Positions 32,649 through 33,788 of a stretch of DNA of 33,788 nucleotides are shown piece by piece (the stretch's first letter is position 1; the number at the start of each line of letters is the position of its first letter). A model generated the notes under the pieces. It worked only from the letters and a program-made list of their open reading frames with translations. It ran no database searches and was not told where the DNA came from. This stretch comes from Bacteroidales bacterium Phil12. GTDB lineage: Bacteria; Bacteroidota; Bacteroidia; Bacteroidales; P3. Position numbers and translations under genes: made by a program. The DNA is taken from the NCBI GenBank assembly GCA_002633275.1, contig NWBO01000109.1:31811-65598 (forward strand). Reading direction: 5' to 3'.

Positions 32649-32693
32649 TAGCAGATAGTGTGGGAGAGATTATCAAACAATGATGAAAAAGCG

Positions 32694-33677
32694 ATGAAAA
32701 AGGTATTGGTTACAGGAGCAAGTGGTTTCATAGGTTCAACTCTTGTGGATTTGTTGTTGGAAAAAGGCGATTACGAGGTATATGCAGGTATAAGAAAGAC
32801 TTCTTCAAAAAAATATCTGACAGATAGCCGCATACATTTCATTGATTTGAAATACACCGACACTGCCACGTTGAGAAATCAATTGCAAACAGAGAATTTT
32901 TCAACGATATTTCATTTAGCTGGATTGACCAAAGCAAAGAAAACGGAAGACTTCTTTACGGTTAATTTCTTTTATACCAAAAACCTCGTAGATGCAATAA
33001 AGGATTTGCCGACTAAACTTATATACGTTTCTTCTTTTGCTGCTCACGGACCCGCACCAGATAATCCTTTTGCTCCTGCTAAAACTACGGATAAGAATAA
33101 ACCGAACACTTTTTACGGCAAATCTAAACTTAAAGGCGAAGAATATATAAACGAAAATTGCACTAATCCGTATATAATTTTACGTCCTACCGGAGTTTAT
33201 GGCCCACGTGAAACAGATTATTTTATATATTTCAAAACTATTAAAAATCATATAGATGCAACGCTTGGCAAACCTGCTCAACGTTTGACATTTATCTATG
33301 GTGAGGATTTGTGTGAGGCTTGTATTTTGGCAGCAAATAGTGATATATCGGGCAAAACCTATTTTGTATCGGATAGTAATGTTTATTTGGATACTGAATT
33401 TGCACGTATTACCAAAGAAATATTTGCCACATGGGTTCTTAGCATTCGTTTTCCGTTGTGGATAGTTAGGTTTATATCTACCTTTTTGGATGTTTTTGGC
33501 AGTATTATACACAAGCAATTCACGTTAAACAAAGATAAATACAATATTCTTGCTGCCCGCAATTGGGATTGCGACACGTCGGACATTGAGCGTGATTTGA
33601 ATTTCCATCCAAAATACGATTTACGCACTGGTTGTGAGCGTACCATAGCATGGTACAAAGAAAACAAGTGGTTATAA
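32694..33677 (+). CDS. NAD-dependent epimerase/dehydratase-family protein, candidate ceramide reductase
   Basis: This is an extended short-chain dehydrogenase of about 327 aa from ATG 32694 (MKKVLVTGASGFIGST). The frame is open from 32658, but that leader lacks family similarity. The NAD-binding GASGFIG (8-14), catalytic YGKSKLKGEE (Tyr and Lys), FHLAGLTKAK, and RPTGVYGPRE are all present. Near the C-terminus the hydrophobic FPLWIVRFISTFLDVFGSII may associate with membrane. In bacterial sphingolipid clusters such a protein reduces the 3-keto group of ceramide (CerR). This assignment depends on the neighbours; a nucleotide-sugar role cannot be excluded. The CRISPR array begins 13 bases after its stop. 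Confidence 0.8.
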   Translation: MKKVLVTGASGFIGSTLVDLLLEKGDYEVYAGIRKTSSKKYLTDSRIHFIDLKYTDTATLRNQLQTENFSTIFHLAGLTKAKKTEDFFTVNFFYTKNLVDAIKDLPTKLIYVSSFAAHGPAPDNPFAPAKTTDKNKPNTFYGKSKLKGEEYINENCTNPYIILRPTGVYGPRETDYFIYFKTIKNHIDATLGKPAQRLTFIYGEDLCEACILAANSDISGKTYFVSDSNVYLDTEFARITKEIFATWVLSIRFPLWIVRFISTFLDVFGSIIHKQFTLNKDKYNILAARNWDCDTSDIERDLNFHPKYDLRTGCERTIAWYKENKWL

Positions 33678-33690
33678 TTTGTTAAAGATA

Positions 33691-33788
33691 GTTGTGAGTT
33701 ATGTGAAAATCCGTAACTTGGCACTTGCAAAAACAACCTACGTTGAGCAATGAGGACCAGTCAGGCGTTGTGATTTGCTCTAAAATCC
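33691..33788 (+). CRISPR. Edge of a CRISPR array, probably type II-C (runs out of window)
   Basis: Repeat 1 (33691-33737) is 47 bp, beginning GTTGTGAGTT and ending AAACAAC, with inverted ends GTTGT/ACAAC. A 29-bp spacer (33738-33766) follows, about 55% G+C. Repeat 2 starts at 33767 (GTTGTGATTTGCTCT...) and is cut after 22 bases. The two repeats agree at 16 of these 22 positions, including GTTGTGA and AAAATCC. From memory, Bacteroidetes type II-C repeats are 47 bp and start GTTGTGATTTGCTTT. Repeat 1 is probably the degenerate terminal repeat. cas genes and tracrRNA are not in the window. Confidence 0.72.

Follow-up and report, generated by a model that had tools for sequence, protein, structure and literature searches.

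The window analyzed here, a stretch of 33,788 nucleotides, ends in 98 bases that look like the edge of a CRISPR array, and its final base (33788) is also the last base of contig C109 in a source genome of 2.96 Mb and 174 contigs. Is this a genuine array end, which end is it, and how would such an array be transcribed? The original prediction described a 47-bp element, 29 bases, and then a second copy, and we found that arrangement exact to the base. A degenerate 47-bp CRISPR repeat (33691 to 33737, plus strand) is followed by a 29-nt spacer (33738 to 33766, plus strand), by position the oldest of the array, and then by an intact repeat of which the contig retains the first 22 nt (33767 to 33788, plus strand). 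The agreement at 16 of 22 positions reported earlier compares these two copies with each other, the first being degenerate. Against the consensus of seven perfect copies on a second contig, C34, the cut copy matches at 22/22 positions and the first copy at 39/47, with mismatches at repeat positions 8, 11 to 15, 30, and 34. The terminal copy is indeed degenerate and is the 5'-most "extra" repeat. The gene whose 3' end lies 13 nt before the array on the same strand (32658 to 33677, plus strand) does border the array, as had been claimed, but the claim of a lipid-synthesis gene needs correction: the open reading frame encodes an NAD-dependent epimerase/dehydratase (PF01370, 1.2e-32), which lies outside the CRISPR system.

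The 13-mer GTTGTGATTTGCT occurs eight times genome-wide, once in the window and seven times on C34, 76 to 77 bp apart; a reversed control of this 13-mer had no occurrence in the genome. Further 47-bp repeats had been predicted at that spacing, and they were seen on C34, not beyond 33788, where C109 ends. The C34 array consists of seven perfect 47-bp copies that run off the contig end. Together with the window's spacer, eight spacers are known, each 29 to 30 nt long.

The cas9, cas1, and cas2 genes and the anti-repeat, which the original prediction had proposed to look for, were all found next to the seven-copy array on C34, whose repeat is that of the window. Along C34, a cinA-type gene (TIGR00200) comes first. 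A tracrRNA gene is predicted next, on the opposite strand; cas9, cas1, and cas2 follow and, after a further 753 bp, the array, which is on the opposite strand. Cas9 has 1,391 aa and matches TIGR01865 (522.9 bits, 2.1e-156) and the HNH domain PF13395 (1.4e-16). The type II Cas1 matches TIGR03639 (310.2 bits, 1.2e-92), and Cas2 matches TIGR01573 (64.1 bits, 1.1e-17); all three NCBIfam matches are above the cut-off. The cas1 and cas2 reading frames overlap, and their top PADLOC models are Cas1_II and Cas2_II. Between the end of cas2 (12582) and the start of the array (13336) there is no open reading frame of at least 60 aa, and csn2 and cas4 models matched none of the nine C34 proteins. The top PADLOC Cas9 models are common to II-A, II-B, and II-C. 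The type II-C assignment, which is supported and agrees with the earlier description of the array as type II-C-like, comes from the gene content of C34. Among the best 80 of 420 relatives (49 to 56% identity in the best segment), 77 are titled as Bacteroidota groups. CRISPR1 of Riemerella anatipestifer, as far as it is described in the available text of two papers (PMC5006608, PMC6008519), shares with the present system the cas9-cas1-cas2 order, 47-bp repeats, spacers of about 30 bp, an anti-repeat upstream of cas9, and an AT-rich leader between cas2 and the array. Unlike CRISPR1, the present array is cut by a contig end. The locus is thus one more ordinary II-C system, and the comparative promoter result set out below is a testable side product of it.

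To compare repeats, we used arrays chosen by nearness to cas9 and not by subtype. The first sample was made up of 85 loci: that of the present genome, those of the best 80 of 420 named relatives, and four congener regions. Arrays were present in 57 of these loci, 58 arrays in all. It was enlarged by 60 Bacteroidales regions, taken from 149 Cas9-bearing genomes, and by two loci of the same order, which gave 145 loci, 36 of them without an array. Some regions duplicate named loci (L230 = L015, L236 = L053), and each distinct repeat sequence entered the counts once. Some records counted as Bacteroidales are titled merely Bacteroidetes or Bacteroidia. The count of 92 long repeats used below omits L041, which has an incomplete repeat 5' end, and the unrelated second repeat of L169. 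The long repeats of L224, L231, L245, and L250 and six short repeats were oriented by hand and included.

Cas9-bearing Bacteroidales loci yielded 92 distinct long repeats, and 79 of them have the motif TAnnTTTG on the crRNA strand. On the other strand it occurs in none of the 92, and all seven short repeats are without it. When the repeats were clustered at 70% identity, 17/26 clusters contained the box, versus a mean of 0.6 and a maximum of 4 after shuffling beyond position 15. The box starts at repeat position 23 to 28 (at 24 in 43/79), which is 18 to 23 nt after the first four bases, and it ends 16 nt before the repeat 3' end in 51/79. Deviations from TATCTTTG at the successive box positions number 5, 5, 15, 11, 3, 0, 4, and 4 of 92; the most variable positions are the two n (15/92 and 11/92, against 0 to 5 in the core). 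Even so, the n positions read TC in 64 of the 79 box-bearing repeats. In the intact repeats of the present genome the box is TAACTTTG, at repeat positions 24 to 31, and the corresponding site of the window's extra repeat (33714 to 33721, plus strand) reads TAACTTGG. The first sample alone had the box on the crRNA strand in 49 of 54 distinct Bacteroidota repeats and on the other strand in 0/54, and its two Fibrobacterota repeats were without it.

We also examined a phylum sample, in which 67 of 392 genomes had a Cas9 over the cut-off (66 genomes with 67 regions, plus the present genome). Of 25 long oriented repeats from other orders, three had the exact box, which in L158 sits elsewhere in the repeat, and 13 had TAnnTT (shuffle mean 4.1, maximum 10). 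The box was found in 1/25 of the oriented 36-bp repeats. L176, which is probably wrongly oriented, was counted as box-less in this sample. The exact box is therefore a Bacteroidales feature that is weaker elsewhere in the phylum.

The same arrays also bear on the polarity of the locus. In arrays with box-bearing repeats, the last (3') repeat was changed in 0/77 arrays and internal copies in 22/1,250, versus 39/57 for the first copy, the window included. Among relatives, summed conservation amounts to 31.7 bits in the 80 nt that follow the last repeat (77 sequences), versus 7.4 bits in the 80 nt that precede the first (56 sequences). This comparison supports the prediction that there is no leader on the window side. 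Of the box-bearing arrays of named loci, 44/45 lie on the strand opposite cas9, so the last repeat generally faces cas2; L046 and L049 are exceptions by position. A second array in L070 has a strongly changed last repeat, and since its repeat is without the box it is outside the last-repeat counts. According to the published text available, spacer adaptation in Riemerella takes place at the cas2 side (PMC6008519), and new spacers of II-C systems are generally added at the last repeat (PMC12080349). The unchanged last repeats and the conserved leader-like 3' flank agree with this published adaptation and make the window the oldest end. We regard it as almost certain that the last bases of the window belong to a type II-C CRISPR array, of which they form the upstream and oldest part, and that the contig end truncates this array. 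New spacers would enter at the leader-like end after the last repeat. A hairpin after the last repeat was considered as a general terminator and rejected, because a z score below -2 was found in 12/78 leaders versus 7/78 controls (P = 0.23). A long hairpin with a T-run does lie directly after the last C34 repeat (L010, 13280 to 13337, minus strand; z = -5.5), and strong hairpins also follow the last repeat in the same-family genomes L243 and L256, but they are not general.

The box is not confined to the repeats. The C34 anti-repeat (L010, 7041 to 7021, minus strand) forms a predicted duplex of -23.1 kcal/mol with the repeat. A box, TATTTTTG, lies 4 nt before it (L010, 7053 to 7046, minus strand), and a hairpin with a T-run is predicted after it. 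From the anti-repeat, box, and hairpin we predict a tracrRNA gene here; no Rfam family was over the cut-off on C34. Across loci, the box was found close upstream of 58/72 anti-repeat matches with a score of at least 24, versus 27/1,440 random places. This share is lowered by a few of the 72 that are not tracrRNA genes but sequences of the other strand resembling the repeat. A loose pattern for the tracrRNA core gave 70 matches, and 64 of them had the box within 50 nt upstream. The n positions of these tracrRNA promoter boxes are varied, with TC in 17/64. The tracrRNA core itself, TAAGGATTATTCCGTTGTGAAAACAT, is very similar in most loci of the anti-repeat survey.

What might the box in the repeats do? 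TAnnTTTG at -7 is the sigma-ABfr promoter consensus of Bacteroidota in the available text of PMC7366714. The present repeats have the same TAnnTTTG, but here it lies inside a CRISPR repeat, where it would start transcription. Repeat-embedded II-C promoters have been described in Flavobacterium columnare (PMC8092290) and F. psychrophilum (PMC10309648). In those arrays each repeat has a promoter and transcription runs towards the variable end, and we propose the same here. In the portions available, TTG is the only repeat motif that the Flavobacterium papers name, whereas the -7 element TAnnTTTG is present in the majority of long Bacteroidales repeats. The 2016 study of R. anatipestifer (PMC5006608), again in its available portion, found no promoters in repeats, while the present repeats have the box as a putative promoter element. 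The accessible parts of two Bacteroides fragilis papers (PMC5704556, PMC9367070) contain no statement of a repeat box, and the word "promoter" is absent from that of PMC9367070. No statement of a TAnnTTTG box in CRISPR repeats was found in the open-licence papers searched. On these sequence comparisons, we consider it probable that the repeats carry an embedded promoter.

The main alternative is that TAnnTTTG is not a promoter, and is instead recognized by Cas1-Cas2 or by some other factor that binds the repeat, or was inherited from a common ancestor. Because the n positions are mostly TC in the repeats versus varied in the tracrRNA promoters, there must be either a further constraint on the repeats or shared ancestry, and the TC preference thus speaks for this alternative. 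So do the occurrence of TTCTTTGA or a TAnnTT variant at a similar place in repeats of other orders and the finding, described below, that the box of first repeats is not better kept than the tail. However, the same box, with varied n, precedes most predicted tracrRNA anti-repeats, where a promoter is needed. Within the repeats it is the two n positions that vary most, and the two Fibrobacterota repeats, which accompany a related Cas9, have no box. We therefore consider a non-promoter motif unlikely, though it is the strongest of the competing explanations.

Under the promoter reading, the -7 box of each repeat (TAACTTTG) would drive transcription of the following spacer and the tracrRNA-pairing part of the next repeat. 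The transcript would then pair with tracrRNA and guide Cas9. We suggest, somewhat less firmly than the promoter itself, that the 46- to 48-bp Bacteroidales II-C repeat is a composite. Its 5' half would pair with tracrRNA, and its 3' half would be a complete sigma-ABfr promoter about 16 nt before the spacer, so that each repeat would end one crRNA and start the next. The added length relative to 36-bp repeats would hold the promoter, and the oldest repeat could lose its first half and keep the promoter half for the first spacer. This model predicts a start for each pre-crRNA within the repeat tail, about 10 nt ahead of the spacer, so that the tail would be part of the transcript. If the box works, it would explain how Bacteroidales II-C arrays are transcribed without a leader promoter, give a reason for their long repeats, and fix the crRNA 5' ends. 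It would also revise the papers that report no promoter, or only TTG, in such repeats. Finally, the repeat would have to suit the host sigma factor, which may limit spread between phyla. We are highly confident in the account as a whole, with the array end in the window and the remainder on C34; within it, the repeat promoter and guide production are proposed.

We consider it very likely that the C109 end and C34 are a single array split by assembly, a join that we infer from the following. In crRNA orientation, the window is the upstream end and C34 is the downstream end. The repeat is found at only two places in the genome, both at contig ends and both oriented as expected of one array. The cut copies cover repeat positions 1 to 22 in the window and 27 to 47 on C34, and may be halves of one repeat. 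Alternatively, the two ends could be distinct arrays that have their repeat in common, as is seen where a genome has an orphan array: in the relative L070 one repeat is used by two arrays, and in the sister species G012 the array and the tracrRNA gene are on different contigs. That is improbable here, because the only two repeat sites are each at a contig end in an orientation that fits one array, the two cut copies could make up one, and the window has the changed first repeat while the other end is on C34. Gene neighborhood is no proof of the join: cinA and the epimerase gene share a contig in 7/13 congeners, but are separated there by about 11 to 135 kb. Both genes are near contig ends in G012, the closest congener. 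No epimerase gene was found near the array in 144 loci of relatives (tblastn, E 1e-15).

The degenerate first repeat can now be considered in more detail. Six of its eight changes fall in positions 1 to 15, the tracrRNA-pairing part (hypergeometric P = 0.009). Feussner et al. (2025, PMC12080349) describe, in the text available, an extra repeat of II-C systems, which is the first (oldest) repeat and is changed mostly in its first 15 nt; 60% of extra repeats were changed. Those authors propose that the changes may limit useless crRNA, while stating themselves that selection is not shown. An upstream intrinsic terminator is one of three strategies that they propose, present in 31/260 systems. The window's extra repeat resembles theirs in being the first repeat, changed mostly in the first 15 nt, in an array where adaptation would take place at the other end. 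It differs in that its box is also changed and in that the predicted loss of pairing is within random expectation. Pairing with the anti-repeat is predicted at -23.1 kcal/mol for the intact repeat and at -16.4 kcal/mol for the extra repeat, but 68% of 5,000 random sets of eight changes weaken the duplex at least equally. A special weakening of tracrRNA pairing was therefore rejected, and selection is not shown for this extra repeat; that its changes were selected rather than tolerated as decay is at best a tentative suggestion.

Window positions 33400 to 33788 hold no terminator-like site, and with the epimerase gene 13 nt upstream on the same strand, read-through is plausible, which makes that gene a possible source of transcription into the array. 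Since no spacer precedes the first repeat, transcription that came in from the epimerase gene would yield a useless crRNA, and the changes in the pairing half would weaken this effect. Because the box of the first repeat is altered (TAACTTGG), the oldest spacer is probably weakly expressed.

Among the first repeats of 57 box-bearing arrays, changes were found at 287/1,321 sites 5' of the box, 5/342 sites of the box core, 5/114 nn sites, and 21/892 sites of the tail. These counts omit 14 box-less arrays, four non-Bacteroidales arrays, four duplicates, and the C34 part. The exact box is kept in 35 of the 39 changed first repeats, and the window's extra repeat is among the four in which it is changed. 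Special protection of the box was nevertheless rejected: within the 3' half, the core had 5 changes versus 7.75 expected (P = 0.17) and was thus not significantly better kept than the tail, and the case was weaker still without an identity threshold. That threshold-free search added five upstream half-repeats with identities of 0.75 to 1.0 (null 99%, 0.59; 99.9%, 0.85), and a sixth, weaker match (L080, 0.62), which reads TATTTTTG, was left uncounted. Only one of the five has the exact box, for a combined total of 36/44, so box retention is partly an outside-in gradient. In L051, the first repeat is without its 5' half, and a detached copy of the lost half was seen by eye about one unit upstream.

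The degenerate copy could in principle be a functional guide-like or regulatory RNA (scaRNA-like) instead of a decayed repeat. Most of its differences from the consensus fall in the pairing region, and the available text of PMC6199352 and PMC13431127 describes scaRNAs in type II systems. This is nonetheless very improbable, as first-repeat changes are common, both here and in the published set cited above, and differ between genomes. Chance resemblance, or a repeat other than CRISPR, is practically dismissed by the 22/22 and 39/47 matches to a repeat beside cas9 in the same genome, the best consensus match elsewhere in the window being 26/47 (bases 1 to 33668, both strands) and the chance of at least 39/47 being about 2e-15 per site at a 27% match chance per base.

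Exact searches of viral contigs with parts of six of the eight spacers, among them the first 20 nt of the window spacer, and with 44 nt of the repeat itself gave no match in any case. A 16-mer common to the other two spacers was found in 82 stretches in viral contigs, and the best matches to those two whole spacers among the loci compared were 22/30 and 23/30. A search of phage records gave two weak matches of one phage (E 0.6), and the target was not found. The 16-nt sequence GATAAGATAGATGTTG is common to two neighboring C34 spacers (L010, 13537 to 13643) but offset by 10 nt between them, as though related invaders had been sampled at overlapping sites. A 7-bp hairpin with a 4-nt loop lies within the spacer closest to the leader end (L010, 13386 to 13403, minus strand).

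The sister species G012 has no Cas9 match, and its tracrRNA gene is kept beside cinA (L364; G012:C52, 1 to 3200), where homology ends about 26 nt before the cas9 start. An array of 11 copies of the identical 47-bp repeat lies on a contig other than that of the tracrRNA gene (G012:C65; L368, 1485 to 2299), with a phage-type kinase-like gene (PHROG 236) upstream. Its ten spacers have at most 9 nt in common with the eight here, and no leader-like sequence was seen by eye in the 144 nt after its last copy. The G012 locus looks like a scattered II-C remnant. At the start of G012:C65 (L367), cas1 adjoins a gene whose product contains the Pfam domains NUC and RuvC_1. We take these to be Cas12a domains, and G012 may thus possess a type V-A system instead of II-C.
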